64,000 nt of DNA from Melioribacter roseus. GTDB taxonomy: Bacteria > Bacteroidota > Ignavibacteria > Ignavibacteriales > Melioribacteraceae. The notes below the pieces were generated by a model. It was not told where the DNA came from, made no database searches, and saw nothing but the letters and a program-made list of their open reading frames with translations. Both the position numbers and the translations under genes were made by a program. Below, one piece after another: positions 1-37,221 of the stretch. The stretch is from NCBI GenBank assembly GCA_020724265.1, contig DYHH01000004.1:124001-188000 (forward strand), written 5' to 3'. Positions within the stretch are counted from its first letter, which is position 1; every line of letters begins with the position of its first letter.

Positions 1-3000
1 ATATATAGCGGATTTTTTGAATCCGATCCATTTATAAGTTCACCGGCAGTTCCTTATCGAAACATTATTGTCGGTGTTCCATCAGAATTCGGCAACACCA
101 TCCAGGTGGTTGATGCAAAATTCGAGACAATCAATAATGTAATTAAACCCAATCCAGTTTTAGATGAAACGAAAGAAGAAGTAGAATTTTCATATAAAAT
201 AAATTCGGATTATTATTCATATCAAAATAAAGAATTGGTAGGCTTTGGTGAGTTTGGATTATTCAGAGATTTACCTGTTCAAAAAATTATTTTAGCCCCT
301 GTTCAATATGATGCCGCAACAAATACAGTAAAACTATATTCAAAAATTAGATTTAGAATTAACTTCTCAAGACCAACCAAGCAAACACAAAGAATAGAAG
401 AAGACCTATCAAGCATTGTAATTAACTTTGATACTGCGCGTAATTGGGGTATCGCAAAAAGTCTCGATAGGATACAAGCAACCGTTCAAAATTCAGTGCT
501 TGCTACCGGAACTTGGTATAAATTCGAAGCCCCGGAAGAAGGAATATATAGAATAGATCGAGCTCAACTTTCATCAATGGGTATTGACCCTAATACTGTG
601 GATCCGAGAACAATAAAAATATACAACAACGGCGGTTACCAGTTAAGTGAAACCGTTACTGCACCAAGACCCAATGATCTTATTGAAAATGCAATTTTAG
701 TAGTTGGAGAAGACGACGGTAGATTTGATCAGAACGATTATATTTTATTTTACGGAAGAGGAACGGACTTTTTTGAATATGATGCAAGTAGAAATAATAT
801 AAGGAGATACAAACACGATTTCTCAAAAAAGAATTTTTATTTTATTACATCCGGTGGGTCTACCGGTAAAAGAATAAACTTAAAACCTTCTTTGAGTGAA
901 CCCAACCCAATTATCCAAACGGAAACGGATTGTTATCTTCATCATGAAAAAGATTTGGTGAACTTAGGAAAAAGCGGAAGAGATTATTGGGGCGAAATGA
1001 TGACTTCGTCAATGCCGAGTCAAACTTTTATTAATACTCTGCATGAATTAGTTCCTTCTACAACTATTAATTATAATTTTCGATTGGCTAACTCTACACG
1101 TGTTGGCACTGCCAGTGCAATTAGTTTTAATATCCAGGAAAATGGACAGATAATATTTTCATCGACTTTAGCAGGTTGGACAACCAGATATCGGTACGGT
1201 TGGGATAGATCAGGTTCAGCTACTTTTACTGGTTCTCTACCCAATAATATGAGTACGTTAAAGTTCACAATAACTAATCCTGCTTCTAATTCTCAGGCAA
1301 ATATTGATTATTTCGAGATTAAGTACCGTAGAACTTTGCGCTCAAGCAATGATGAATTTATTTTCTATTCGGAACCCTTAAATGGGATTATTCAATTTAA
1401 CCTCACTAATTTTACAAACAGCAGTATTAACGTTTTTGAAATTACCGACCATGCAAACGTTCAGATGATTGAACCATTGTTTTTAAGCGGGGGCGAATTT
1501 AGATTTCAAGATAACGGAACACAAACTAATCGAAAAAAATATATTGGCTTAACAGGAACAAAATTCAAAACTCCATCAAATATTCAGTCTGTTCAGAATT
1601 CAAATATTCGAGGTATAACACCAGGTTCTGAATACATAATAATAGCACATAAAGAATTTACTTCACAAGCACAGAGATTAGCAAATTACAGGGCAAATCA
1701 ATCTCCAAAACCAATTAGCACATCTTTAGTATATGTTGATGAAATCTATAACGAGTTTTCAAGCGGTTCGTTAGACCCGACTGCAATAAGAGATTTTATT
1801 GCTTATGCATACAGTAATTGGCAGATAAGACCAAGTTTAGTGTTGTTATTCGGCGATGGAGACTATGATTATTTTGATATTGAAGGTAAGAATAAAAATT
1901 TTATTCCAACGTTTCAAACACGAGAATCTTTAGATGCAATAGAATCTTATCCTTTCGATGATTTTTACTCTCGAGTATCTGGTGATGATGTTAAACCTGA
2001 TGTTGGTGTCGGTAGATTAACCGTTAATAATCCTTCAGAAGCGGAAATTGTTGTTGATAAAATTATAGAGTATGAAACACAATCCGAACAAGGTCTTTGG
2101 AGAAATACTATAACTCTTGTAGCTGATGATGGGCTTACTTCAAGTGGGAACGACGGTGCGTTGCATTTAAATCAATCGGAAGATCTATCAAGATTGTACA
2201 TTCCACCTACCTTTGATCAGAAAAAAATAAACTTGATTTCTTATCCAACTGTAATAACCGGAGGTGGAAGACGGAAGCCTGCAGTTAATAAAGATATTAT
2301 TGATGCAATTAATAATGGTACGCTAATTTTAAATTTTATTGGACATGGCAACCCCGATGTTTGGACACATGAAAACGTCTTCTTAAAAGATATTACAATT
2401 CCACAGCTAAAAAACGGTAAATACTTTTTCTTAACTGCCGCTACCTGTGATTTTGGAAAGTTTGATGTACCGGATGATCAGAGTGCAACTGAACTTATGT
2501 TATCGAAGCCAGAGAGTGGAGTTATAGGTGCCTTTACGGCAAGTAGACCTGTTTATTCAAATTCGAATGCGGCATTGAATGAAAAGTTGTTTAAGCACAT
2601 GTTGCAGGTTAAAAATAGCGATAATTCGCCACGAAGAATTGGTACTGCTTATATGTTTGCTAAATTTGAAGGGAGTAACAATTTACGCAATGATGAGAGA
2701 TTTCTTCTTTTCGGTGACCCGGCAGTAAGACTCAATCAACCCGAAAATCCAGTAACTATTGATTCAATAAATGATTCGGATCTTAGTGTTGATGTGCAGA
2801 TTAGTGCACTTGGTAATGTTGATATTACCGGTTCGTTTAAAAACTTAGACGGTTCGCAAAGTAATTTTAGCGGCGAAGCCATAATATCCGTTTTCGATGC
2901 CAAAAGAAATATTTCGATTCAGGAACTTGGTTATACATACAGAATATCACAACAAGGCGGTCTAATTTTTAGAGGTAGAGTAACCGTATCTAATGGAAAA

Positions 3001-3807
3001 TTTAATACCAATTTTACTGTTCCAAAGGATATTTCATATCAAAATGAAAATGGAAAAGTAGTTGTCTACGCCTTCAATAATGAAGTCGATGGATCCGGTT
3101 ATACCGAACGTATAATTGTTGGAGGAACAGATACTTCAAGTGTTAATGACGGAAGAGGTCCTAATATTGAAATTTATTTTGACGATCTTTCTTTCGACAA
3201 CTCGTATTTGGTTAGTTCTAATTTTACTTTATTAGTAAAACTTGAGGATGAAACAGGTATTAATACAACCGGATCAGGCGTGGGACATAACCTCGAAGGT
3301 ATAATAAATGACGATGAAAATAATCCTATCGATCTCACATCAAATTTTGTCGGTGATCTGGACGCAGGAGGTAAATCGGGTGTTGTAAGTTATAGATTTT
3401 CCAATTTTGATGAAGGTGATCATAAAATAAGAATTAAAGCCTGGGATGTGTTCAACAATTTATCAACCGAAGAATCTTTCTTCTCTGTTGTTAATTCCGA
3501 TCAATTGGCAATTAGAGAAGTGGTAAATTATCCGAATCCGTTTTCTTCAAATACGACATTTACATTCCAGCAGAACTTAACAAAAACTCTTAATGTAAAA
3601 GTGAAGATTTATACAATTGCCGGCAGGCTAATTAAAGAAATTGAGCAATATAATATTTTAGATAAGTTTGTGAGAATCCCTTGGGATGGTCGCGATCATG
3701 ATGGCGATCAGCTCGCGAACGGTACATATCTTTACAAACTTATTATTGAATCTACCGATAAAGAATTTAGAGAAACAGTTTTAGGTAAATTAGCAGTAAT
3801 TAGATAA
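1..3807 (+). CDS. porU: Type IX secretion sortase PorU, C25 (gingipain-like) peptidase, 5' truncated
   Basis: The reading frame is open from the first base, so the gene starts left of the window; the GTG at 106 is internal and not a real start. PorU is the outer-membrane cysteine peptidase of the type IX secretion system. It removes C-terminal sorting domains from cargo and attaches the cargo to the surface. The C25 core is visible: the catalytic His lies in a GHG motif (His codon 2344-2346) and the catalytic Cys in ATCDFG (codon 2446-2448). The C-terminus (about 3520-3807) carries a NPF...GRLIKEI...WDGRD...GTYLYKL segment, a FlgD/sorting-domain-like fold, as expected because PorU itself uses the system. 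porV follows 34 bp downstream, the usual neighbour order. The family call is strong; the N-terminus cannot be judged. Confidence 0.9.
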   Translation: MYSGFFESDPFISSPAVPYRNIIVGVPSEFGNTIQVVDAKFETINNVIKPNPVLDETKEEVEFSYKINSDYYSYQNKELVGFGEFGLFRDLPVQKIILAPVQYDAATNTVKLYSKIRFRINFSRPTKQTQRIEEDLSSIVINFDTARNWGIAKSLDRIQATVQNSVLATGTWYKFEAPEEGIYRIDRAQLSSMGIDPNTVDPRTIKIYNNGGYQLSETVTAPRPNDLIENAILVVGEDDGRFDQNDYILFYGRGTDFFEYDASRNNIRRYKHDFSKKNFYFITSGGSTGKRINLKPSLSEPNPIIQTETDCYLHHEKDLVNLGKSGRDYWGEMMTSSMPSQTFINTLHELVPSTTINYNFRLANSTRVGTASAISFNIQENGQIIFSSTLAGWTTRYRYGWDRSGSATFTGSLPNNMSTLKFTITNPASNSQANIDYFEIKYRRTLRSSNDEFIFYSEPLNGIIQFNLTNFTNSSINVFEITDHANVQMIEPLFLSGGEFRFQDNGTQTNRKKYIGLTGTKFKTPSNIQSVQNSNIRGITPGSEYIIIAHKEFTSQAQRLANYRANQSPKPISTSLVYVDEIYNEFSSGSLDPTAIRDFIAYAYSNWQIRPSLVLLFGDGDYDYFDIEGKNKNFIPTFQTRESLDAIESYPFDDFYSRVSGDDVKPDVGVGRLTVNNPSEAEIVVDKIIEYETQSEQGLWRNTITLVADDGLTSSGNDGALHLNQSEDLSRLYIPPTFDQKKINLISYPTVITGGGRRKPAVNKDIIDAINNGTLILNFIGHGNPDVWTHENVFLKDITIPQLKNGKYFFLTAATCDFGKFDVPDDQSATELMLSKPESGVIGAFTASRPVYSNSNAALNEKLFKHMLQVKNSDNSPRRIGTAYMFAKFEGSNNLRNDERFLLFGDPAVRLNQPENPVTIDSINDSDLSVDVQISALGNVDITGSFKNLDGSQSNFSGEAIISVFDAKRNISIQELGYTYRISQQGGLIFRGRVTVSNGKFNTNFTVPKDISYQNENGKVVVYAFNNEVDGSGYTERIIVGGTDTSSVNDGRGPNIEIYFDDLSFDNSYLVSSNFTLLVKLEDETGINTTGSGVGHNLEGIINDDENNPIDLTSNFVGDLDAGGKSGVVSYRFSNFDEGDHKIRIKAWDVFNNLSTEESFFSVVNSDQLAIREVVNYPNPFSSNTTFTFQQNLTKTLNVKVKIYTIAGRLIKEIEQYNILDKFVRIPWDGRDHDGDQLANGTYLYKLIIESTDKEFRETVLGKLAVIR

Positions 3808-3841: not shown

Positions 3842-5002
3842 ATGAAAAAAGTAGTGTTTTTATTAATGACAATATTGTTGTTTTTTGGTGCACAGAATAA
3901 ATACTATGCACAGGGTGAGGCTGCCGTTCCATTTCTGCTTTTAGCACCCGATTCAAGAGCCGGCGGTATTGGTGAATCCGGAACCGGATTAGCCGATAAC
4001 TCTGCTGCAATTTTTTGGAACCCTGCCGGTATCGCATTCTTAACAGGTTCGGAAGTCAGTATTACACATAGTAATTGGCTGCCCCAATTCAATTTGGATT
4101 TGTTCTATGATTATCTAACATATCGTCAATATGTTGAAAGTCTCGGCGGAAGTGTTACCGCAAGTATTACATACATGAACTTTGGTGAATTTGTTCGTAC
4201 TTCTTCTCAATCACCTGATCCCATCGGTACATTCCGGTCATTCGATGCTGCATTGACACTTGGATATGCAACCAAGCTAAGTAATGATTGGGGTATGGGT
4301 TTTAACTTTAGAGTTATTCACAGCCGGCTTTCGGATCAACCGACAGAACATGAGCAAGGAAGTGGTGTTGCAACTTCTGTAAGTTTTGATATTGGCGCAA
4401 TGTGGAGACCCGAAATTTTAAATATCCCACTTATCGGAGATATGGGAAATCGTTTTTCGATCGGAGCTAATTTGAGTAACCTCGGCCCCAAAATAACTTA
4501 TATTGACCAAGCGCAATCTGACCCAATACCGACTAATTTTAGGTTAGGTTTTGCTACAAGAATATTTGAAGATGAATATAATTCATTAACCTACACTCTT
4601 GATTTTAGTAAACTACTTGTCAGCAGAGTGGATAGCGGTAAAACAAAGGATGAATTCTACAAAGCTATTTTTACTGCATGGGCAGACCAATCATTTGGTG
4701 AAGAACTTAGGGACATTGTTACATCTATGGGATTGGAATACTGGTATGGTAAACCTGATGATTTTATGTTTGCTCTAAGAACAGGTTTCTTTTATGAAGA
4801 CCCGTCTTACGGCAATAGAAAATTCCTAACACTCGGTGCAGGTATTAGGTATGATATGTACGGATTTGATTTTAGTTATATAACAACTGATATGTTTAAG
4901 GACGGTGAGAATCACCCACTCTCCGATACATTAAGATTTACTCTCCTCATTGGCTGGGGATCTACTCCTTCACAAACAAAAGGTTTTCCACGCGGAATCT
5001 AA
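3842..5002 (+). CDS. porV: Type IX secretion outer-membrane protein PorV
   Basis: This 386-residue predicted outer-membrane beta-barrel belongs to the PorV/LptO family. PorV shuttles folded cargo from the T9SS translocon to the PorU sortase complex. An N-terminal signal peptide ends near YYAQG. The mature N-terminus has the family features: FLLLAPDSRAGGIGESG followed by ADNSAAIFWNPAG, in the FadL-like UPF0164 style. The rest alternates short strands and turns and ends in an aromatic-rich strand region. A GGAGG ribosome-binding site about 8 bases before the ATG supports the start. The gene sits between porU and a secreted M6-like gene with spacings of 34 and 6 bp, which suggests one operon. 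PorQ-like relatives are the alternative, but adjacency to porU favours PorV. Confidence 0.88.
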   Translation: MKKVVFLLMTILLFFGAQNKYYAQGEAAVPFLLLAPDSRAGGIGESGTGLADNSAAIFWNPAGIAFLTGSEVSITHSNWLPQFNLDLFYDYLTYRQYVESLGGSVTASITYMNFGEFVRTSSQSPDPIGTFRSFDAALTLGYATKLSNDWGMGFNFRVIHSRLSDQPTEHEQGSGVATSVSFDIGAMWRPEILNIPLIGDMGNRFSIGANLSNLGPKITYIDQAQSDPIPTNFRLGFATRIFEDEYNSLTYTLDFSKLLVSRVDSGKTKDEFYKAIFTAWADQSFGEELRDIVTSMGLEYWYGKPDDFMFALRTGFFYEDPSYGNRKFLTLGAGIRYDMYGFDFSYITTDMFKDGENHPLSDTLRFTLLIGWGSTPSQTKGFPRGI

Positions 5003-5008
5003 ATCAAT

Positions 5009-8000
5009 ATGAAAAATACTATCTCGCTAATTCTTTCTCTAGTTTTGAGTTTGGGCATGGTAAGTGCCCAAACTTCTTTTAAGTTGAATCCGAATCCAAG
5101 AAGCGAACCATTAAGGTTAGCGCAAAACGATACTTTAAAAATTCTTGCGGTTATGGTTGAATTCCAGCAAGATAATGACGGCAATACTTTTGGGAACGGT
5201 AAATTCGGTTCAATGTATTCAAAAGATTACGGCAATACAATATTAGACCCTTTACCTCATAATGCAGCTTACTTTGAAAGTCATCTTGAATTTGCAAGAA
5301 ATTATTTTAACAAAGTATCGAGCGGAGTCTTTAATATTTCATTCAAAGTATTTCCGAATATTATTACTGTTTCAAAAACAATAAGAGATTATTCACCGCC
5401 TCCACGAACTGAAGATTTTTCCGGGTTAGCTTCATTTGCTCAAGAAGTCTGGCAGCTTGCCGATCAAACCGGGCAAATTGATTTTTCTGAATATGATATG
5501 TTCACAATATTTCATGCGGGAGTCGGTAGAGAAATTCCTACACCCGGCAGTATTGGTTTGGAACGCGATATTCCTTCATTGTATTTCAGTGAGAATGCAT
5601 TTAAAAGAATTCTCGGCAGTTCATTTAACGGAATTCCCGTTAACAATAGCAACTTTCTTATAAAGAATACGGCAATATTACCTTCTACAGAGAATAGAGA
5701 GATTGAAAGTTTTGGTCAAGTTTATTTACAGGAATTTACAATTAACGGATTGATAGTTGGTACCATTGCTTCGCATATGGGTCTACCTGATTTATTTAAT
5801 ACCGAAACCGGAACAAGTGCAATAGGTAGATTTGGTCTTATGGATGGTCAAGCACTTTTTGCGTACAACGGTTTGTTTCCACCTGAACCTTCGGCTTGGG
5901 AGAAAGTATATTTAGGATGGGTTACGCCGAAAACTCTTTCTTTAGTAGATCAAACAGTTAGTCTAACAACTTATCAAGCAGCCGCAGAAGGGGATGATGT
6001 TCTTGTTAAGATTCCAATAAATTCTAATGAATATTATCTTATCGAAAATCGTAAACGAGATGCAAATAAAGACGGAATAACATTGACTTATAAAATCGGT
6101 TCTGCTGTAAATACTATAAAATTTGATAAAGACATACCGAGTTTTTCTCCTTTTGGTGCAGATACCCTTATTGGCGTTGTTATTGATGTTGATGAATATG
6201 ATTGGGCTTTACCGGGATTTCTTGAAACACAATCTTTTGATGATCCTTTCGAAGATGTAGGATTTATAATTTGGCATATTGACGAAGAAGTAATTAGACA
6301 GAATATAGAATCAAACACAATTAATAATGACCGAAACAGGCTTGGAGTTAAAGTTGTTGAAGCTGACGGTATTTTTGATATAGGGGAAGAGTTTACAACA
6401 ATATTCGGTGAAACAGTTATTGGTGAAGGAACAAAACAAGATACCTGGTATCGCGGGAATCCTTCGAAATTTTACGAGAACAAATTTAATGCAAATACAA
6501 AACCCCCTGCTGTTTCAAATACCGGTGCAAATTCTTTAATTGATATTAGCGACATATCTGATATCGGCAATGAAATGTCATTCAAAATTAGTTTTAAAAA
6601 TAGTTCTGTTACTAAATTAATTCAGAAAGAATTAATGGTTGGCAATGATTTTAAAAATGTTTTTGGAATTAAAGACAATATAATTGTTCAAGCCGGTGAT
6701 GATATTCATTTTTATGATAGTAATGGTGAATTTCTTTTTACTGAAAATAATTTTAGCGATGTAAAACCTGCTGCTTTTGATATAGATGATTATAGTTTTA
6801 TTGTCGGCTCTGCTGACAACTCTTTAAAAGTTTTTTCATTTTCCAATGGCATCTCCACACTTGAGAAATATGAAATATTAGTCGGCGAAAAAGTTACTTC
6901 TCCAATTATGATTTCGGAAAGTAATATTGGCTTCGATATATACATAGGTACAGAAACCGGGAAAATATTTAAGTATAATTTTTCAGAAAATAATACTGAG
7001 AAATTAATTCTTTTAGAGACATTCAACGTCTTTAATAATATACCGGTAAAGCAAGTTGTATATAATTATCATCAACAAGTAATCTTTGCAATAGCCGGTA
7101 ATCAATATTGGAATTCCCATGAAGGGCAAATTTATAATTATGATTATCATTTATCAAAAATTGCTGTTACAAGCTATGTTATTGAGGATATTGCAACAAA
7201 TTTAGCTATTATGCTTGATGACAATAATAATTTTATTTCCAAACAAATATTTGGTGCTGAGAAGATTTTTTCAGTATCAGGTGATGATCTGATCGAAGAC
7301 TTTTTATTAACTGATTTAAAGTACGATAGAAAATTACGAATTGTATATTCTCAAAAAGATAAAATTGGGGCACTTAATTTTGAAGGCTCTACATCGGAAT
7401 ATTTTCCAGTTAAACTCAGTTCAAAATCTACTGAAATTGAAAGTAAGTACTTACTTTCGGTAAACTTGAATCAAAATAATTACTGGGATGTAATTAGTTT
7501 TTCTAAAAACGGAATTGTAAATGCTGTTGACGGTAGAAGGGGAGAAACAATAGCCGGTTTCCCGATTTCTTCAGGGTCAGAGAGCATTGTTCATCCGGTT
7601 ATATATGAAAGCGGCGGATTTAGGTTGATGCTGGTAAATAAAAATAATGAACTTTTAGTCTGGGGATTTGATAATATTTCTTATTCAAATCAATGGATTG
7701 GAGAATATGCAAATAATTATAATAACGCTTTTGTAACTGTTTCAGCACAAGGTGATGTAATTACGGACTATTTTCCTATGGACAAAGCTTATAACTGGCC
7801 TAACCCGGTTTATGGAGACGAAACGAAAATCAGATTTTATGTAAGTGAAAATTCGAATGCCGAAATAAAAATATTTGATCTTGCCGGAGATTTGGTTGCG
7901 GAACTAAACGGTTCTGCTGCCGGTGGTATGGATAACGAAATTACCTGGAATGTTAATAATATTCAAAGCGGCGTTTATCTTGCTCACCTGACCGTAAAGA

Positions 8001-8053
8001 GCGTTGGTGGTAAAAGCGATAGTAAACTTATCAAAATATCAGTGATTAAGTGA
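5009..8053 (+). CDS. Secreted M6-like protein with T9SS sorting domain, zinc motif lost
   Basis: This 1014-residue exported protein has a signal peptide ending at VSAQ. The first 400 or so residues resemble the M6 (immune inhibitor A-like) metallopeptidase fold: an early LAVMVEFQQDNDG strand, the MGLPDLFN segment, FGLMDG, and PSAWEKVYLGW. In active M6 enzymes the catalytic helix reads HExGHxLGLPDL. Here the equivalent residues 251-258 are G-T-I-A-S-H-M-G, so both zinc-binding His and the Glu are missing. The middle part looks like a beta-propeller-type repeat region. The last 80 or so residues (NWPNP...IKIFDLAG...GVYLAHLTVKS) form a T9SS type A sorting domain. It lies 6 bp after porV and is probably co-transcribed. 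A structural or binding role is more likely than proteolysis. Confidence 0.75.
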   Translation: MKNTISLILSLVLSLGMVSAQTSFKLNPNPRSEPLRLAQNDTLKILAVMVEFQQDNDGNTFGNGKFGSMYSKDYGNTILDPLPHNAAYFESHLEFARNYFNKVSSGVFNISFKVFPNIITVSKTIRDYSPPPRTEDFSGLASFAQEVWQLADQTGQIDFSEYDMFTIFHAGVGREIPTPGSIGLERDIPSLYFSENAFKRILGSSFNGIPVNNSNFLIKNTAILPSTENREIESFGQVYLQEFTINGLIVGTIASHMGLPDLFNTETGTSAIGRFGLMDGQALFAYNGLFPPEPSAWEKVYLGWVTPKTLSLVDQTVSLTTYQAAAEGDDVLVKIPINSNEYYLIENRKRDANKDGITLTYKIGSAVNTIKFDKDIPSFSPFGADTLIGVVIDVDEYDWALPGFLETQSFDDPFEDVGFIIWHIDEEVIRQNIESNTINNDRNRLGVKVVEADGIFDIGEEFTTIFGETVIGEGTKQDTWYRGNPSKFYENKFNANTKPPAVSNTGANSLIDISDISDIGNEMSFKISFKNSSVTKLIQKELMVGNDFKNVFGIKDNIIVQAGDDIHFYDSNGEFLFTENNFSDVKPAAFDIDDYSFIVGSADNSLKVFSFSNGISTLEKYEILVGEKVTSPIMISESNIGFDIYIGTETGKIFKYNFSENNTEKLILLETFNVFNNIPVKQVVYNYHQQVIFAIAGNQYWNSHEGQIYNYDYHLSKIAVTSYVIEDIATNLAIMLDDNNNFISKQIFGAEKIFSVSGDDLIEDFLLTDLKYDRKLRIVYSQKDKIGALNFEGSTSEYFPVKLSSKSTEIESKYLLSVNLNQNNYWDVISFSKNGIVNAVDGRRGETIAGFPISSGSESIVHPVIYESGGFRLMLVNKNNELLVWGFDNISYSNQWIGEYANNYNNAFVTVSAQGDVITDYFPMDKAYNWPNPVYGDETKIRFYVSENSNAEIKIFDLAGDLVAELNGSAAGGMDNEITWNVNNIQSGVYLAHLTVKSVGGKSDSKLIKISVIK

Positions 8054-8097: not shown

Positions 8098-11000
8098 ATG
8101 ACTAAATTATTCAAAACAATCGTGATATTATCCGTATTAATTTTATCTATTAATGCGCAATATAATGAGTATGAACCCGATTACGAATGGTTGACAATAG
8201 AAAGGAAAAATATAAGCGTTCATTATCATCCCGAAGCCGAACGCAGTGCAATGGTAGTTGCAAAAATTGCAGAAGAGATTTGGGAACCTATTACAATGCT
8301 GTATAGGTATGAACCCGATAGAGTCCATTATGTTATTAAAGATATTGATGATTATGCAAACGGTGCAACATTCTTTTTCGATAATAAAATTGAAATCTGG
8401 GCTTCTTCTTTAGATTTTGATTTACGCGGTACTCATCATTGGCTTCGAAACGTTATCTCTCATGAATTTACTCACATGGTGCAGCTGCAAGCCGGTATGA
8501 AGCTGTCTCGTAATGTCCCGGTTTTCTATCTGCAATTTCTTAATTATGAAGACAAGCGAAGACCGGATATACTTTACGGTTATCCCAATTTTATCGCATC
8601 ATATCCGGTGCCGTCAATTAATATTCCTGCCTGGTTTGCCGAAGGTACTGCTCAATACATGCGTACCGAATTTAATTACGATTATTGGGATACTCACCGT
8701 GATATGATTTTGCGTTCGTATGTGCTTGATGATAATATGCTTACTTGGAATCAAATGGGAGTTTTTAATAAATCATCTTTAGGTAACGAATCGGTTTACA
8801 ATTCAGGATTTGCACTAACAAAATACATTTCTCAAAAATACGGTGAAGAAAAAATCAGAGAAATTACTGAGAAACTCGGTAAGCTAAGTAATTTTACTTT
8901 TGATGCGGCAGTGCATGATGTTTTAGGAATAACAGGCAATGATCTTTATAATGAATGGAAAAGTTTTCTTCAAAAAGATTATGCAGAAAGAATTGCTGAA
9001 GTAAAATCAAATTTAGTTGTTGGAGATACAATTCGTTCCGAAGGTTTTGGAAACTTCTACCCGGTTTATAAAGAAGACGGTAAAAGTATAATATACGTAT
9101 CAAATAAAAATGCAGACTATTTTTCTCTCTCATCAATTTTTGAATATAACTTAGAAACAAAAGAAGAAAAATTATTGGTACCCGGGATTCGTTCTACTTT
9201 TGGTTTATTACCGGGAGAAAACAAAATACTTTACGCAAAACTAACTGACAAAAACCCTAACTCAATTTCTATACATGATTTATATACTTACGATCTGAAA
9301 GAAAAAGAAGAGAAGCGTATAACATACGGCTGGCGTGCTAACAACCCGACCGTTTCAAATGATGGGAAAAAAGTTGCTTTTGTATTTCAAAAAGATGGAA
9401 CTACCAATCTTGCTGTTTCGGATGTTGACGGAAAGAATTATCAAGTTTTAACTCATTTCAAAAATGGTGAACAAGTTTATAATCCAAAATTCTCAAACGA
9501 TAATTCGCATATTGTTTTTGATTATTCATTTCACCACGGAAGAGATATTGCAAAAATTAATCTTGATGGAACGGGATTCGAGTTTTTGATTCAAACGGAT
9601 TCCGATGAAAGAAATCCTGTTTACGATAAAGAAGGTAATTTAATTTTTAGTTCGGATGAAACGGGAATTTTTAATATTTATAAAATGAATATGCAGACCG
9701 GCGAAATAAAAAGATTAACCAACGTTGTCGGTGGTGCGTTTATGCCCTGTGTTAATCAAAACGGTGATATAGTTTATGCCGGTTATATTTCAGATGGTTA
9801 TAAAATATTTATTTTGAAATCCGAACCGAATAATAAAGTTGATGAATCAAAAAAATATACTTGGGTTTACAATCCACCGCTCGATACCGATAAGCCGGAT
9901 CAAAATGCCGTTATTAAGAATGTTGATGCTCTCAAATATTTTAACGATGTTGATTTAACCGGATTCGAATCAAGAAAATACTCAGGTTCATTTACCAACT
10001 TAGCATTCTATCCGTTTATCAGGTATGATAATTATAACACATCAAATGACTTAACTGACAGAATTAAACCCGGTGTATATGTTACATCAAATGATATCTT
10101 AAATCGTTTCGGTTTCTTCGCCGGCGGTGCTATTAACAAAAGATTAGAAAGAGATCTGTTCTTAATATTTGATTACAGAGATAAACTTCCGCTAATTTAT
10201 AGTTTGGGCTTAAAACCGGAATTGTCTATTGAACTATATTCAATAAGCAGGGAAGCACAAGTTGATTTAATTTTTGATTCACTCGATGCAGCTAATAATA
10301 CTGTCGGCACAGATGTTACTTACAATTTATTTGAAGTTGATTTTGTTGTTAAACATAGGATATTCAAAAATATTGAAGACTTCGAGTTCAGATATATATT
10401 CAGTCAATATGTCGCAACATTAGGGAGTTTTATTTTTCCTAATACAACATATTTATATCCAACAACTAACGACAAATATTTTATCGGTAGTAACTTCCAG
10501 TTTAAGTTTAACTTCAATGACTATCGAGCAAATGTTGACAGCGATATTAACCCGGTAGGCCGCGAAATTGAGTTGCAGTATAATTATGAAATGAATAGAT
10601 ATAATAATGACGGTGAATATGAAATTGATGACGGTGTATTAAAACCTTTGTATAATAATTATAATTTTCATAGGCTTGAACTCAATTACAAAGAGTATAT
10701 TGAAACAATAAAAGGGCATACGATTTATGCACGTTTAAGAGCAGGAACAATATTTGGACCGGAAGTACCGGACTTTTTTGATTTTTACTTAGGCGGATTA
10801 ACCGGCATGCGTGCGTATCCTTTTTATGCAATAAGCGGAAATGAAATTGCATGGCTTAATCTAACTTATCGCTTCCCGCTGTTTAGAAATATCGATACGC
10901 GGATTGGGCATTTTTATCTTGATAAAATATTTCTTTCGGTACACGGCGATATAGGTAATGCCTGGAACGGAGACATCCCGGCTTTTGATACTTTTAAAAG

Positions 11001-11178
11001 AGGTGCAGGATTTGAACTAAGAATTAAAATGAATTCTTTCTATTTATTCCCGACAAGTTTATTTTTTAATGCATCCTATTCATTCGATAGATTTACTACA
11101 CGTGTATTGAATGAAGATGTAACTTACGGAAAAGAATGGCAGTTTTACGGCGGTATTCTATTCGATTTCAGTTTATAA
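8098..11178 (+). CDS. Surface protein: gluzincin peptidase domain, TolB-like propeller, C-terminal beta-barrel
   Basis: This 1026-residue exported protein has a signal peptide ending near INAQY. Residues 50-290 look like a gluzincin (MA clan) peptidase: HEFTH at 122-126 and a downstream WFAEGTAQYM segment with a candidate third ligand, Glu182. Residues about 310-600 hold repeated YVSN, KVAFVFQKDG, HIVFDYS and LIFSSDETG strands typical of WD40/TolB-like beta-propellers. From about 640 to the end the sequence becomes strand-rich and aromatic, with FFDFYLGGLTGMRAYPFYAISGNE near 895, as in Omp85/surface-antigen barrels. The protein therefore appears to carry its own outer-membrane anchor instead of a sorting domain. 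Substrate is unknown. It follows the T9SS genes in the same orientation, 44 bp downstream. Confidence 0.75.
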   Translation: MTKLFKTIVILSVLILSINAQYNEYEPDYEWLTIERKNISVHYHPEAERSAMVVAKIAEEIWEPITMLYRYEPDRVHYVIKDIDDYANGATFFFDNKIEIWASSLDFDLRGTHHWLRNVISHEFTHMVQLQAGMKLSRNVPVFYLQFLNYEDKRRPDILYGYPNFIASYPVPSINIPAWFAEGTAQYMRTEFNYDYWDTHRDMILRSYVLDDNMLTWNQMGVFNKSSLGNESVYNSGFALTKYISQKYGEEKIREITEKLGKLSNFTFDAAVHDVLGITGNDLYNEWKSFLQKDYAERIAEVKSNLVVGDTIRSEGFGNFYPVYKEDGKSIIYVSNKNADYFSLSSIFEYNLETKEEKLLVPGIRSTFGLLPGENKILYAKLTDKNPNSISIHDLYTYDLKEKEEKRITYGWRANNPTVSNDGKKVAFVFQKDGTTNLAVSDVDGKNYQVLTHFKNGEQVYNPKFSNDNSHIVFDYSFHHGRDIAKINLDGTGFEFLIQTDSDERNPVYDKEGNLIFSSDETGIFNIYKMNMQTGEIKRLTNVVGGAFMPCVNQNGDIVYAGYISDGYKIFILKSEPNNKVDESKKYTWVYNPPLDTDKPDQNAVIKNVDALKYFNDVDLTGFESRKYSGSFTNLAFYPFIRYDNYNTSNDLTDRIKPGVYVTSNDILNRFGFFAGGAINKRLERDLFLIFDYRDKLPLIYSLGLKPELSIELYSISREAQVDLIFDSLDAANNTVGTDVTYNLFEVDFVVKHRIFKNIEDFEFRYIFSQYVATLGSFIFPNTTYLYPTTNDKYFIGSNFQFKFNFNDYRANVDSDINPVGREIELQYNYEMNRYNNDGEYEIDDGVLKPLYNNYNFHRLELNYKEYIETIKGHTIYARLRAGTIFGPEVPDFFDFYLGGLTGMRAYPFYAISGNEIAWLNLTYRFPLFRNIDTRIGHFYLDKIFLSVHGDIGNAWNGDIPAFDTFKRGAGFELRIKMNSFYLFPTSLFFNASYSFDRFTTRVLNEDVTYGKEWQFYGGILFDFSL

Positions 11179-11190
11179 GAAGGTGTTAAA

Positions 11191-12051
11191 ATGAAAAAAA
11201 TATTTTTGATTCTTCTCGTAACCGGATTATCATTTTCACAAGAGATTAATAACTTTAGTTTTACAGGAAGTTTAACACTTGATTCTAAACTTGTTTTTTT
11301 TGAACAGCAAGAGGAAATTAATCAAGAAACAGTTTATCAGCAGAATAAGAAATCGGCTTTCTTATCATCTATAATGTCTTTAGCATTACCCGGTGCAGGA
11401 CAATTCTATAATCAAGATTATTGGAAAGCTGCAATATTTATAGCAGTGGAAGCAGCGGCTATTACTTTGGGAGTAATATATGACGGTAAGGGAGATGACC
11501 AAACAGTGTTTTATGAAAACTATGCCGACCAGCATTGGAACGTTGTACAATATGCACAATGGACTTATAACAACGCAAGCCGAATAAATCCAAATGTTGA
11601 TCCTACTCAATTTAATTTGTTTGATGGACAAGGGAATTTAAATTGGTCCGAACTAAACCGGCTTGAAAGTGCAATCGGTAAATGGTACTCACATAAATTA
11701 CCCCCTAAAGGGGATCAGCAGTATTATGAGATGATTGGTAAATACCAGCAGTTTAATGCCGGTTGGTCTGATTTTACGGAAGACCCGAATAACCCATATA
11801 CATACGGCGATCCTTTAACGGAAAAATTTCTTTATTATTCTGAGCAGCGAGGTTTAGCAAATGATTATTACAATGTTGCTAAGTGGGCAGTTATAGGAAT
11901 TGTCACAAATCATATTCTAAGCGCTGTTGAAGCAGCATTTGCTACCGGTGCATATAATAGAAGATTGGAAACACAGCTTAATATTAAACGGGAACAAATT
12001 GGTTTTCATACTGAATATTATCCTGAATTTTCAATTAGATTTAACTTTTAA
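11191..12051 (+). CDS. DUF5683-like membrane protein
   Basis: This 286-residue protein has a signal-like N-terminus (MKKIFLILLVTGLSFSQE). A hydrophobic segment at about 64-100 begins SLALPGAGQFYNQDYWKAA, a pattern seen in DUF5683 and similar small membrane proteins in which the GxGQFYN motif precedes a transmembrane helix. A second hydrophobic stretch lies near residue 235 (VAKWAVIGIVTNHILSAVEAAFA). The region between is hydrophilic and rich in Tyr, Trp and Asn. An AAGAAGGTG ribosome-binding site precedes the ATG. It begins 12 bp after the barrel-protease fusion and probably shares its transcript. Function is unknown; the family assignment rests on the GAGQFYN segment only. Confidence 0.55.
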   Translation: MKKIFLILLVTGLSFSQEINNFSFTGSLTLDSKLVFFEQQEEINQETVYQQNKKSAFLSSIMSLALPGAGQFYNQDYWKAAIFIAVEAAAITLGVIYDGKGDDQTVFYENYADQHWNVVQYAQWTYNNASRINPNVDPTQFNLFDGQGNLNWSELNRLESAIGKWYSHKLPPKGDQQYYEMIGKYQQFNAGWSDFTEDPNNPYTYGDPLTEKFLYYSEQRGLANDYYNVAKWAVIGIVTNHILSAVEAAFATGAYNRRLETQLNIKREQIGFHTEYYPEFSIRFNF

Positions 12052-32067: not shown

Positions 32068-33033
32068 TTGCAAAATAAAAATCTTATTACGGTAGATTTA
32101 GGCGGAACAAAAATTCTCTCTGCGCTACTCAACGGTCAAGATCAAATTGTTGATCGTTTCAAAGAAGCAACAAAAATTACGGGCGAGATTGACCCGATTA
32201 TAGAGGGAATCAAAAAAAGTGTTGATACCTTAATCGAGAATAATTCTCTTTCTTCAAATGATATAACTGCGATTTGTTTAGGAGTCCCGGGGACAGTTAA
32301 CCCGAATACGGGATTAATAGGTTTTGCTCCGAATCTTGGTATACGAGATTATAACATTAAAGAAACTTTATCAAAGTATTATAATATACCTGTATTGATT
32401 GAAAACGATGTTAACCTTGCCGGTTTAGGAATACAACAAGCTGAATTAAAAGACAATGTAAAAAATATGCTTGTGGTTTTTATAGGAACAGGCATAGGAG
32501 CTGCTTTATTCATAGACGGAAAAATTTATAGAGGTTCTTCTTTTTATGCAGGTGAGATAGGGCATATGCGTATTAACCCGAAAGGCAAACCGTCAAAAAA
32601 ATCAAAATTAACATTTGAAAACATCGCAAGTAGAACTGCGGTTGTAAATGCAATTATTGAAGAAATCAACAACGGGAAAAAAAGTTACTTAAGCAGCATC
32701 GTAAAGAAAGGAAAGCGAATAAAAAGTAAATCACTAAAAGCTGCCGTTGAAGCTCAGGATGAACTTGTAATCGAACATTTAACGGGGTCTGCAAGAATAA
32801 TCGGGTCTGTGCTTGGCAGTATTGCAACTTTATTAAATTTAGACAGCATTATACTTGGCGGCGGTGTAATTGAATCTTTGAATGATTTTATGCTGCCCAA
32901 AATTCGAAAAGCATTTAATAAAGCAGTGCTTCCGGAACCGGGTAAGATTGTTAAAATTGATTACACAAGGCTGGGTGACGATGCTCCTTTATACGGCGGT
33001 ATTAAATTGGCTCAAGAATTTTTAGAAAGTTGA
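32068..33033 (+). CDS. ROK family sugar kinase (glucokinase-like), zinc motif absent
   Basis: This protein of about 321 residues has the ROK phosphate-binding motif TVDLGGTKI, the ENDVNLAG catalytic region, the GTGIGAALFIDGKIYRG loop and GEIGHM with the conserved His. Most ROK proteins follow this with a CxCGxxGCxE zinc site; here the segment reads PSKKSKLTFE without any Cys. Phosphorylation of glucose is likely, but another hexose or N-acetylated sugar is possible. TTG codons at 32056 and 32068 are both in frame; the second is chosen because GGGAG (32058-32062) then works as its ribosome-binding site. The 3' end overlaps the convergent ABC-F gene by 22 bp. Confidence 0.85.
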   Translation: MQNKNLITVDLGGTKILSALLNGQDQIVDRFKEATKITGEIDPIIEGIKKSVDTLIENNSLSSNDITAICLGVPGTVNPNTGLIGFAPNLGIRDYNIKETLSKYYNIPVLIENDVNLAGLGIQQAELKDNVKNMLVVFIGTGIGAALFIDGKIYRGSSFYAGEIGHMRINPKGKPSKKSKLTFENIASRTAVVNAIIEEINNGKKSYLSSIVKKGKRIKSKSLKAAVEAQDELVIEHLTGSARIIGSVLGSIATLLNLDSIILGGGVIESLNDFMLPKIRKAFNKAVLPEPGKIVKIDYTRLGDDAPLYGGIKLAQEFLES

Positions 33034-34961
33034 GATTCAAACTCATTTTCTATTGACTCAATTTCTGCAGTTATTTCTGCCCATCTTTCATAATTTACTT
33101 CAAGAGATTTCTGAATTTCCATATAACGAATTTTTGTATTTTTGATTCTTTCAACATCACTGTAAATTGATGGGTCGGCTAAATCATTCTCATTTTTAAT
33201 TTTCTCGTTTTCTAAATATTCTATTTCTTTTTCAATCGATTCGAGTTCTTTCTTCATATTTACTGTAGCTTTATATTTTTCCTGTCTTAATTCCGCAATT
33301 CTTCTTTTTTCTTCCTTCTTAAGATTTTTGTTTTTGCTTTCCGTAGACGAAGTTGTCTGCTCGGCTTGAAGTTTTTCCAAGTAGTAATCAATTGTTCCGG
33401 GATATTCTTTTATTCTGGAGTTTCTGATTTCAATTACTTTATTAACTACCGGACGGATAAAATCAATATCGTGAGAAACTATTATCAGTGTACCGTTAAA
33501 TTTAAGCAGTGCATTCTGTAATATTTTTTTAGATTCAAAATCAAGATGGTTAGTCGGCTCATCAAGAATAATCAAATTTGCTTTTTGAATTAATATTTTA
33601 GCAAGAGCCAAACGACTTTTCTCTCCGCCGGAAAGAACTTTTACTTTTTTAAAAACATCATCATCGGAAAAAAGAAACGTGCCTAATATTGTACGAATTC
33701 TACCAATCGTTAAATCGTCGGTAACTTCACCTAATGTATCAATAAGATCATATTCCGGGTTGAGGTCTTCCGTTACTTCTTGTGCATAATATGATATATA
33801 AGTATTGTGCCCAACTTGCATTTCGCCTTGAGTAGGAGATAATTTATTGGAAATTATTTTTGCAAGAGTTGTTTTACCCGCACCGTTCGGACCAACAAAA
33901 GCAATTTTATCACCACGATGGATCTGTAAATTTACATTTTCAAAAACAGGTTCCTTTGTGTAAAATTTCGAAATTCCTTTTAGTTCAACCGGAACAGCAC
34001 CGCTTCTTTCTGCTTCAGGGAAATGAATTTCAATTTTATTTTCACTTTCAGGTGCTTCAAGTGTCTCCATCTTTTCGAGCATCTTAATTCTACTTTGAAC
34101 TTGTCTTGCTTTAGTATTCTTATATCGGAATCGCTCAATGAACCTTGTCATTTGCTTTACTTCACGTTCTCTATTCTTAATTTGATTTATAAGCTGCTCG
34201 TCCCGCTCTTTTTTGAATACTAGATACTTTGCATAATTTCCGTTGAATACATTTACTTTCTGATTGAATATTTCAATAGTTCTACTTGTAACGCTGTTTA
34301 CAAAATGCTGGTCGTGGGAAATTAATATTAGCGTACCTTTATAATTACGAAGAAAATCTATTACCCATTGAAGTGAATCAATATCGAGATGATTTGTAGG
34401 TTCGTCTAGCAAGAGAATATCATTTGCGGCTAATAAAATTTTTGCAAGTTCAATCCTCATTTGCCAGCCGCCGGAAAATTCATCGGTTAGTCTATTGAAA
34501 TCGGATTCCTTGAACCCAAGTCCGCTTAAAACCTTACCAATTTTTGAGTCAATTTCGTAATAGCCGATTTCTTCTTTTAGATGATGGATATCACCAAGCC
34601 TATGGATTAAATCATGCTTTGTTTTATTATCATTTGAAGATTTCAGTAAATCATTAATTTCGCTTTCTTCGGAATCCAATTCTATTGCTTTGGTGAAGGT
34701 AGATTTAACTTCATCGAATAAGATTTTTCCTTTGAAATGTAAAAAGTCCTGGGGCAGGTACCCGATTTTCAATCCTTTTTGTTTTTGGATTGTACCGGAT
34801 TCAAGTTGTTCGATTCCTTTTATTAATTTTAGCAGAGTTGATTTGCCTGTACCGTTGGAACCAACTAGTGCAAACTTATCCCCGGAGTTAATACGGAAAT
34901 TAACATTGTTAAATAAGTACTTCCCGGAAAATTGAACGGAGATATCTATAAGATCAATCAT
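33012..34961 (-). CDS. ABC-F family ATPase (Uup/EttA-like)
   Basis: This 649-residue protein has two ABC ATPase domains and no membrane segment. The first has GSNGTGKST, FSGGWQMRIELAK and LLLDEPTNHLD; the second has GPNGAGKTT, LSGGEKSRLALAK and LILDEPTNHLDF. A charged interdomain linker contains the FIERFRYKNTKARQVQSRIKM segment typical of the ABC-F P-site tRNA interaction motif. A C-terminal coiled coil (about 550-649) resembles Uup or YheS. ABC-F proteins act on ribosomes, either as translation factors or in antibiotic protection. Nothing here marks it as a resistance factor. It lies 7 bp downstream of the PorZ-like gene. Confidence 0.92.
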   Translation of the reverse strand: MIDLIDISVQFSGKYLFNNVNFRINSGDKFALVGSNGTGKSTLLKLIKGIEQLESGTIQKQKGLKIGYLPQDFLHFKGKILFDEVKSTFTKAIELDSEESEINDLLKSSNDNKTKHDLIHRLGDIHHLKEEIGYYEIDSKIGKVLSGLGFKESDFNRLTDEFSGGWQMRIELAKILLAANDILLLDEPTNHLDIDSLQWVIDFLRNYKGTLILISHDQHFVNSVTSRTIEIFNQKVNVFNGNYAKYLVFKKERDEQLINQIKNREREVKQMTRFIERFRYKNTKARQVQSRIKMLEKMETLEAPESENKIEIHFPEAERSGAVPVELKGISKFYTKEPVFENVNLQIHRGDKIAFVGPNGAGKTTLAKIISNKLSPTQGEMQVGHNTYISYYAQEVTEDLNPEYDLIDTLGEVTDDLTIGRIRTILGTFLFSDDDVFKKVKVLSGGEKSRLALAKILIQKANLIILDEPTNHLDFESKKILQNALLKFNGTLIIVSHDIDFIRPVVNKVIEIRNSRIKEYPGTIDYYLEKLQAEQTTSSTESKNKNLKKEEKRRIAELRQEKYKATVNMKKELESIEKEIEYLENEKIKNENDLADPSIYSDVERIKNTKIRYMEIQKSLEVNYERWAEITAEIESIENEFESQLSKNS

Positions 34962-34968
34962 AGCAGAA

Positions 34969-37221
34969 TTATTCTCTTAAAATAGCAACCTTGGCTTTTG
35001 ATATATTTGATCCGTCTTCATCATGTGCAACAATTAAATATATTCCGCTTGGAACTAAATTCCCATCCATATCTTTCGCATCCCAAAATCCAACTCGTCC
35101 TCCCGGCGTAACAATTTCTCTAACTAACTTTCCGCTGATGGTCAACACTTTTATTGTTGAGTTTGCTATTAGCCCGTCAATGGTAATGTTCTGATTGGAA
35201 CTATTGTTAACTATTACCGGGTTGGGATAAACGAAAAGTTCATCAAAACTTTCTCGTGGTGTAACCGAAGTTGTTTTTAATGCGGATAATCCGAAGTCTG
35301 TACCAATATAGATTATTCCGTTTGTCTTATCAATTGCCAAGCTTTTTATTTCATTGGAAGGAATAGGACTGTTTTCGGTGTTATAACTATTAATTACGAC
35401 TGTACCGTCTTCGGAAAGATGGAAAAGCCCTTGCATTGTTCCAACCCATTTCTGATTAAGCGGGTCAACTTTAATATCTGTTATTGTTTGTTGCCGTAAG
35501 CCTAAAACTGTAGAAATTCGAGATGTAGGGGTTGATGGTTCCGGAATAATATTAACACCCAAGTTTGTACCAACCCACAAAGCACCCCGCTGATCCAGAG
35601 CAAGTGAAGTTATTACATTACTGGCTAACCCATCGGAAGAACGAACCCATCCCATTTTATCATCGTTTGGATTATTAAAAGTACCGTTCTCATTAAAATA
35701 GTAAAGACCAGTACTTCCAACTGTAATTGCAAACCATTTAGTATCGTATTGGTCAATTTCTAAATGGTAAGCAAGATCGCTTTCGGTAACAGTAGGACTT
35801 TTAAATTCAAAACCATGAATATCGCCGGAAGTTGTTATAACGGAAAGAGGTTTTCTTTCAGCAGATTGATGGTTAACTACCCAAATATTTCCTTTGGAAT
35901 CTGTTTTAACATCAGATATTACTAAGAAACTTGGGTCTGCCGGTACACCGGCAATATTAGTATTTTGTGCAGTATAGTTTGTAATAACATTATTTTTTAG
36001 AACAGTTAATCCACGTCCCCAATTGCAGAAATACTTAGTGTTATCACTTCCTGCAAAAACTTTATGATATGAATTTGTTATAATCTCCGGATTGTTTTCG
36101 TGGCTTAGTAGTTCCCATGATATGCCATCAAAATGCATAACCCCGATACCGAAAACATCTTGTCCGGTTCCTACCCAAAGTTCACCGTTATTATCAGCTG
36201 TTAAACTTAAAAATGCATTGTTTGCCGGACCATCGGGAATTAACAATTCATAGTTACCGGAACTAATTTTCAGTACACCTGAATTTGTCGCAGCAAATAA
36301 TATTCCTGATGAAGTAGCATAGATATCGTTAATTATATAATTCTCACTATTTTCAAATACAACTTCTGAATTCCCTTGTGAAAATTTATATATTCTGTTT
36401 TTACCTGATTCAAAAGCAACAACAAATAGTTCTGTTGAAGAAGCAGCAATATTTCTTGTTTCAATTCCGTTTAATGCATAAGAGATCCAACTATTATTTT
36501 CAAATTTTAGGATGCCTGAACTTGTAGCAGCTAAAACATCACTGTTGAATCTTGCAAACTCGTAAGCATTGCTTGACGGGAAACCTGAATTAAAGAAATA
36601 TGAATTCCAAGATTCCGGAGCAGATAAATTTGTTGAATTGGTTCGTTGAACTGCTACACCATTATTGGTAATCACAAAAAATCTATTAAACTTTCCGCTT
36701 GATAAAACAGGAATTGTTGCATCGAAATCGCCAAATTTTATAAATGTATCATAGAAAGAAAAATCTTTCGGATTAATTAACGAAAGACCAAATGCCGTTG
36801 AAACCAAAATTGTATCGCCAAAAACTTCTATTTTGTTAATATTTTTTTGAGAAAAATTAGAGTTAAGAATATCGTTTATTTTTCTTATTGCACCGCTCTG
36901 AAAATCATATATATTTATCATACCCGGTTGTGCCCCAAGTTGAGTACCAAACCAAATCTGATTTAAATTATCAATTGCTACTGTTGTCAGTAGAGGACTT
37001 GAAAGTCCCTCACTCGTTCCTAATTGAAGGAAAGTTGAGGAAGAGTTTTCATATAAGAATGCTCCTCCGGTTGTAGCACACCAGATTTGATTATCATCAA
37101 TAGACGTTATCGCAATAATTTCCTTTTTGCTGGAATAACTAGCCCAAGTTCCGATTCCTTGACCGAATAAAGTATTTGTTAATAAAAAGAGAAGCACAAA
37201 TGATACTGTTTTTGCAATCAT
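34969..37221 (-). CDS. PorZ-like two-component-regulator propeller protein with T9SS sorting domain
   Basis: This 750-residue secreted protein has a signal peptide ending at FGQG. The mature N-terminus (GTWASYSSKKEIIAITSIDDNQIWCATTGG) resembles PorZ, a T9SS surface protein that helps attach cargo to anionic lipopolysaccharide. Repeated NQIWFGT, LWVGTGQD, IWVVNHQ, LWVGTNLG and KWVGTMQG strands mark two stacked beta-propellers of the two-component-regulator-propeller type. The C-terminal 85 or so residues (VYPNPV...IKVLTISGKLVREI...GIYLIVAHDEDG) are a T9SS type A sorting domain. Assignment to PorZ rather than a generic propeller cargo is tentative. It is far from porU/porV, as porZ often is. 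Confidence 0.75.
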   Translation of the reverse strand: MIAKTVSFVLLFLLTNTLFGQGIGTWASYSSKKEIIAITSIDDNQIWCATTGGAFLYENSSSTFLQLGTSEGLSSPLLTTVAIDNLNQIWFGTQLGAQPGMINIYDFQSGAIRKINDILNSNFSQKNINKIEVFGDTILVSTAFGLSLINPKDFSFYDTFIKFGDFDATIPVLSSGKFNRFFVITNNGVAVQRTNSTNLSAPESWNSYFFNSGFPSSNAYEFARFNSDVLAATSSGILKFENNSWISYALNGIETRNIAASSTELFVVAFESGKNRIYKFSQGNSEVVFENSENYIINDIYATSSGILFAATNSGVLKISSGNYELLIPDGPANNAFLSLTADNNGELWVGTGQDVFGIGVMHFDGISWELLSHENNPEIITNSYHKVFAGSDNTKYFCNWGRGLTVLKNNVITNYTAQNTNIAGVPADPSFLVISDVKTDSKGNIWVVNHQSAERKPLSVITTSGDIHGFEFKSPTVTESDLAYHLEIDQYDTKWFAITVGSTGLYYFNENGTFNNPNDDKMGWVRSSDGLASNVITSLALDQRGALWVGTNLGVNIIPEPSTPTSRISTVLGLRQQTITDIKVDPLNQKWVGTMQGLFHLSEDGTVVINSYNTENSPIPSNEIKSLAIDKTNGIIYIGTDFGLSALKTTSVTPRESFDELFVYPNPVIVNNSSNQNITIDGLIANSTIKVLTISGKLVREIVTPGGRVGFWDAKDMDGNLVPSGIYLIVAHDEDGSNISKAKVAILRE

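Follow-up and report, generated by a model that had tools for sequence, protein, structure and literature searches.

The T9SS is known mostly from Bacteroidia species, and four of its parts, PorU, PorV, PorQ and PorZ, form an attachment complex. All type A sorting domains are described as being taken by PorV (available text of PMC12618676), and PorA, PorU and PorZ, themselves exported parts of the T9SS, are described as retaining their own sorting domains (available text of PMC11285876). PorZ is built of propellers and an uncleaved sorting domain, and in the accessible sections of PMC8545088 it consists of two seven-bladed propellers with no M6 domain. Metallopeptidase pseudoenzymes usually act by binding, sometimes on active peptidases, and ADAM22 acts through its dead peptidase domain (sections of PMC11266112). 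Against this background we analysed a 64,000-nucleotide stretch of a Melioribacter roseus genome (the window), in which the gene at 5009..8053 on the + strand encodes a T9SS-dependent M6-like inactivated metalloprotease, hereafter M6i. This kind of protein is already curated and named in NCBIfam: the model NF052323 (T9SSA_dep_M6i) matches along the full length, with the same domains and the same inactivation, as do all 44 sequences of our family alignment. In the scan output the model carries a family name and no function, and the open-licence papers that we searched held nothing on the function of the M6i family or on the barrel peptidase described below together with the T9SS. What this analysis adds is the pairing with this barrel peptidase, a linkage to PorV and not to PorU, the persistence without PorU and PorZ, and the data on fold and constraint.

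Each of the closest described systems shares part of this design. With the InhA2/immune inhibitor A M6 peptidases (TIGR03296, PF05547), M6i has in common the fold, the GLPDL segment, the third-ligand Asp and the HAG and IWHID strands, but it lacks HExxH and the W/H pair 189/191 and has an extra propeller and a T9SS sorting domain. PorZ (NF052228) resembles it in its propellers, type A sorting domain and link to the T9SS, but is devoid of the M6 domain; the genes for both coexist in the genome of the window. As in ADAM22 and other pseudo-metallopeptidases, which use their dead domain as a surface for binding (again in sections of PMC11266112), HExxH is lost and the fold is kept, while ADAM22 belongs to another family, is eukaryotic and has other partners.

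Domain architecture, predicted fold and loss of HExxH

The M6i gene is a stop-free frame of 1014 aa whose product matches NF052323 with 963.7 bits (cut-off 600) over residues 5-1014. A probable Sec signal peptide (5009..5068, + strand), read by eye and coinciding with a helix at residues 2-18 of the model, is followed by an M6-like pseudopeptidase domain (residues 40-530; 5126..6598, +), a beta-propeller that is probably eight-bladed (residues ~532-890; 6602..7678, +) and a type A C-terminal sorting domain (residues 928-1014; 7790..8050, +). The sorting domain exceeds the cut-offs of both PF18962 (residues 930-997, 35.7 bits, cut-off 27) and TIGR04183 (residues 930-1009, 31.9 bits, cut-off 23). 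The frame and the sorting domain are intact, as the original prediction had stated. The M6 signal is fainter at this level, with 70.1 bits to TIGR03296 (cut-off 110.8) and a match to PF05547 (E 0.01) in one of the 44 family members. Searches against the PDB returned nothing for M6i by phmmer at E up to 10, and the family profile found propellers and one sorting domain there, with no M6 chain. The M6 link therefore rests on TIGR03296, on the alignment and on the fold search.

An AlphaFold2 model of the whole protein, built from 65 sequences, reached a pLDDT of 89.5 and a pTM of 0.86. Fold searches with this model were dominated by propeller matches (in VIA-align, Z 26-29 to eight-bladed and WD propellers, including Z 28.9 and rmsd 2.9 over 324 residues to Rsa4 chain 7uoo_x, Z 26-27 to eight-bladed designs and 26.4 to BamB), and the M6-like domain was for this reason modelled separately (residues 38-531; pLDDT 91.2, pTM 0.93). 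VIA-align superposed 380 of its residues on InhA2 (4yu5) with Z 22.4 and rmsd 3.4, the best chain from another family scoring Z 9.2; ADAM22 was also among the rows. Foldseek likewise matched the domain to InhA2 (4yu6, E 1.4e-13). The domain is thus predicted to have the M6 fold, its match, InhA2, being an M6 peptidase. A second HExxH-like site somewhere in the fold had been considered beforehand, and the protein contains no other HE..H.

The residues G-T-I-A-S at 251-255 (5759..5773, +) lie on a helix (246-256) that would be expected to carry HExxH and is still present in the model. Active M6 relatives belonging to the same order have H-E-x-x-H at the corresponding place, and HExxH is found in all 12 of these relatives that cover the region; GLPDL comes next in M6i. 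In the joint alignment with these 12, H251, E252 and H255 are substituted in M6i, as are W189 and H191, two further positions of active M6 proteins, while G247, G258, L259, P260, D261, H169, H423 and D425 are common to both groups. The alignment confirms the substitution and the loss of the zinc ligands on the helix that had been read from the window; the third-ligand position, D261, is nevertheless kept in 44/44 family sequences. We take the Asp of GLPD to be the third zinc ligand of the M6 motif HExxHxxGxxD. Two M6 proteins with intact motifs (HEMGH and HEMFH) and a C-terminal sorting domain are encoded elsewhere in the same genome (L198:2286-5132 and L199:4507-7032).

HExxH was absent from the M6i site in all 87 distinct homologous loci (88 aligned rows, the M6i of the window being counted twice), an alignment that left out ORFs with <500 bits to the family profile and copies with identical last 200 residues. 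HE..H was likewise absent from the whole of the M6-like ORFs of 80 loci from Ignavibacteria, Melioribacter and relatives, collected with patterns outside the HExxH position, so that the search itself did not select against the motif. Both sets may share genomes, and their counts are kept separate rather than summed. The usual family sequence at the site reads N-G-L-L-x-A-S-I-G-S-[HYF]-L-G-L-P-D-L. Orthologues that retain the motif were looked for and none turned up; the loss is general, and it is an old, shared trait of the family rather than an isolated loss or an error. A sequencing error, a frameshift or a decaying gene, which would leave such a motif by accident, is refuted by the family-wide occurrence of the same loss, by the intact frame and by purifying selection. 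It is also very improbable that the M6-like domain retains some chemistry through another metal or active site. The conservation of H169, D261, H423, D425 and E346 in nearly all members speaks for it; the first four are conserved to the same extent in active M6 relatives and hence are probably structural in M6i, HE..H is missing from the 80 loci, and W189 and H191 of active M6 proteins are lost as well.

The porV neighbourhood and the barrel metallopeptidase

The gene for M6i begins 6 bases behind porV (3842..5002, +; NF033710, 263 bits, cut-off 250), the outer-membrane shuttle of type A sorting domains, which follows the sortase gene porU (106..3807, +; NF033707, 1023.8 bits), an open frame of 1327 aa with its true start upstream of the window. 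Behind M6i stand a putative outer-membrane metallopeptidase (8098..11178, +) and a DUF5683 protein (11191..12051, +; PF18935, 31.3 bits), by synteny the usual last gene of the cluster. From porU to der, successive ORFs are separated by 34, 6, 44, 12 and 29 bases, which makes a single operon likely. The gene for PorZ, the A-LPS delivery protein of the attachment complex, is unlinked to porUV (34969..37221, - strand; NF052228, 340.7 bits, cut-off 260) and adjoins an ABC-F ATPase gene (33012-34961).

The protein at 8098-11178 is a fusion of an MA-clan peptidase, a TolB-like propeller and an Omp85-like barrel. Its peptidase domain carries HEFTH and WFAEGTAQY and scores 31.7 bits to Peptidase_MA_2, just under the cut-off of 32.4, and PD40 matches with 33.2 bits. 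Peptidase_MA_2 is found in 18/18 members of the family and Omp85 (PF01103) in 1/18; H122, E123 and H126, that is the HE and the second His, are invariant in all 18, as is E182, the Glu of AEGTAQY. The propeller matches TolB in the PDB by profile (E 6.1e-20), and the C-terminal barrel resembles Omp85, with a motif GGLxGMRxYPFY read by eye. Judged by these sequence features, the product seems to be a peptidase tethered to the outer membrane, with no specific family of its own in NCBIfam or Pfam; we refer to it as the barrel peptidase.

The link to porU-porV, which the original prediction had given to M6i, is to porV rather than to porU. Among the 39 long loci of the phylum sample (L066-L104), PorV adjoins M6i in 38, while 30 have PorU in the cluster and five genomes are without PorU altogether; 31 of the loci include the barrel peptidase. 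In four f34 genomes PorU is located elsewhere. Twelve further stretches comprised two with the active M6 genes of the genome of the window and ten from PorU genomes without M6i. In these ten stretches PorU and PorV stand together with neither M6i nor the barrel peptidase, and DUF5683 follows PorV in 1/10. M6i is thus tied to porV and the barrel peptidase rather than to porU. In one metagenome-assembled genome (Bacteroidetes bacterium isolate WY4.bin22, L149:460-8652), a tandem of two PorU-like genes precedes PorV and M6i.

The tie to the barrel peptidase extends beyond the locus. At a presence threshold of E <= 1e-60 for both proteins, at which divergent copies of either could escape, M6i was found in 78 of the 198 genomes of the phylum sample and the barrel peptidase in the identical 78. 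The two are unlinked in eight of these (G043, G051, G113, G120, G158, G165, G168 and G204), and in G138 both lie at contig ends, which makes their linkage unreadable. PorU (E <= 1e-100) is present in 136/198 genomes, 73 with and 63 without M6i, and at the threshold used M6i was not found in the flavobacteria-like PorU genomes of the sample. The 64 rows of a PorU tree (40 carrying M6i and 24 lacking it; fragments <900 aa and L103, a duplicate from the same genome as L192, left out) require at least 7 changes in the state of M6i, and well-supported branches force 6 of these. A sign test on this tree gives p 0.031, which only counts the ~6 independent contrasts and, given identical presence vectors, is no separate test. 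Joint inheritance of genes that lie side by side may account for the co-occurrence.

Constraint within the protein bears on whether M6i is ordinary T9SS cargo, a propeller-type surface adhesin or glycan binder that has come to stand in the porV operon by chance. In a comparison of 881 codons with the nearest relative (L106, 85% identical), the whole gene has a dN/dS of 0.111, the M6-like part one of 0.047 and the propeller one of 0.165, so that the dead domain is under firmer selection than the propeller; for one of the six pairs compared (barrel peptidase against L107) dS is saturated and no ratio is given. Mean pairwise identity among 44 M6i sequences is 43.6% in the M6-like domain, 18.0% in the middle and 41.4% in the sorting domain. 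By these measures the M6-like domain is the most constrained part. The reading of a conserved, apparently non-catalytic M6 protein is upheld. The type A sorting domain above cut-off, FG-GAP-type repeats in 16/44 members and a propeller that is the variable part, as expected for a ligand-facing domain, would all suit an adhesin. So would the conservation of the sorting domain: in active M6 cargo (9 of the 12 active relatives, those whose locus shows no recognisable sorting domain being omitted) mean identities are 49.7% for the core and 50.0% for the sorting domain; set against the rest of the protein, the M6i sorting domain is conserved no better than theirs. A status as a machine part is accordingly unsupported by conservation of the sorting domain alone. 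Weak hints of it remain in the low TIGR04183 rank of this domain, given below, and in sorting domains of M6i and PorU that keep pace with the divergence of their bodies, unlike those of cargo (L210 and L214 share 71% in the core and 46% in the sorting domain, L210 and L219 41% and 63%). However, an adhesin would hardly place its strongest constraint on a dead M6 domain instead of the propeller, nor would cargo be expected to go one-to-one with the barrel peptidase even where the genes are unlinked, or to keep a fixed position behind porV in 38/39 long loci. M6i is moreover present in 39/39 near relatives, as against a match to active M6 cargo in at most 14/39, some of these C-terminal only. 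We therefore consider ordinary cargo unlikely.

Persistence without PorU and PorZ

Five genomes with completeness of 99-100% (G098, G115, G142, G153 and G199; loci L070-L073 and L100) lack PorU and PorZ and possess SprA, PorV, a full-length M6i and the barrel peptidase. Searched at E <= 0.001, the PorU model gave a best match of E 4.6e-10 or weaker in these five, and among the matches listed only the sorting-domain end was covered. PorZ is above its cut-off in none of them, with a single match of 21.3 bits in G142 (cut-off 27), and none is among the carriers of PorU2. A related genome, G187, has PorU and no PorZ match. SprA is present in all 20 genomes chosen for the test, 15 of which carry M6i. 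Since the five genomes without PorU keep M6i, it does not depend on the sortase (INDEPENDENCE from sortase). What these genomes carry is a naturally sortase-less T9SS, in which SprA, PorV and proteins with sorting domains are present and PorU and PorZ are not. Two other associations were rejected. A replacement of PorZ by M6i is contradicted by PF21544 in 38/39 relatives and by the PorZ gene in the window, and an association with the PorU2 paralogue, suggested by the joint numbering of NF052323-NF052325, by the distribution of PorU2, which occurs in 50/198 genomes and not in the PorU-less genomes with M6i.

The five genomes also weigh on a role for M6i as a fifth member of the attachment complex of PorU, PorV, PorQ and PorZ, either as a sortase cofactor or as an extra glycolipid-delivery unit. 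Such a part would fit the presence of porU in the cluster of 30/39 long loci and the likeness to PorZ, which similarly combines propellers with an uncleaved sorting domain (in the available text of PMC8545088). Its sorting domain also scores low: when the 121 TIGR04183 matches of the genome of the window (G000) are ranked, M6i is 110th, near the bottom, close to a PorU2-like frame, PorU and PorZ (117th to 119th). The M6i family profile also matches 5m11_A (PG93 antigen), which we take to be PorZ, weakly at the sorting domain (E 0.019). Yet M6i occurs without PorU and PorZ (over cut-off) in five nearly or fully complete genomes, is absent from 63 of the 136 PorU genomes and has PorU elsewhere in the four f34 genomes mentioned. 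Membership in the attachment complex thus seems improbable, more so than a role as cargo.

A candidate binding partner on PorV

The reading we prefer, to which we give a probability of roughly one half, is that M6i is a pseudopeptidase acting as a non-catalytic binding partner that works with PorV and the barrel peptidase. M6i would have lost M6 catalysis long ago and would work by binding since then. It would be exported by Sec by means of its signal peptide, pass through SprA on its type A sorting domain and be captured by PorV, the product of the gene 6 bases upstream. The capture of type A domains by PorV, their retention in exported T9SS parts and the linkage to porV together suggest that M6i is exported and held by PorV at the surface. 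There the constrained M6-like domain would bind a partner, while the variable propeller might serve as a second, lineage-specific face. The likeliest partner would be the barrel metallopeptidase encoded by the next gene, which M6i might position, load or restrain; its one-to-one presence with a membrane-anchored and apparently active peptidase makes the latter the first candidate. The surface location, the lasting stay on PorV, the contact with the peptidase and the direction of control are all what this reading would predict, and the peptidase domain of the barrel protein may face the periplasm. The role as a T9SS accessory that the original prediction had suggested is plausible.

A bolder version would make M6i and the barrel metallopeptidase a two-part pseudoprotease-protease system on PorV, in which the dead exported subunit brings substrates to the live one or controls their access to it. 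Such a system might mature or shed surface proteins without PorU and might thereby survive the loss of PorU. We regard this version as speculative and rather doubtful. The observation that a dead protease goes one-to-one with a live, membrane-anchored one and is kept even without the sortase concerns the biology of the T9SS outside its model species. If the pairing is true, it would provide an example from bacteria of a pseudopeptidase in the service of another peptidase.
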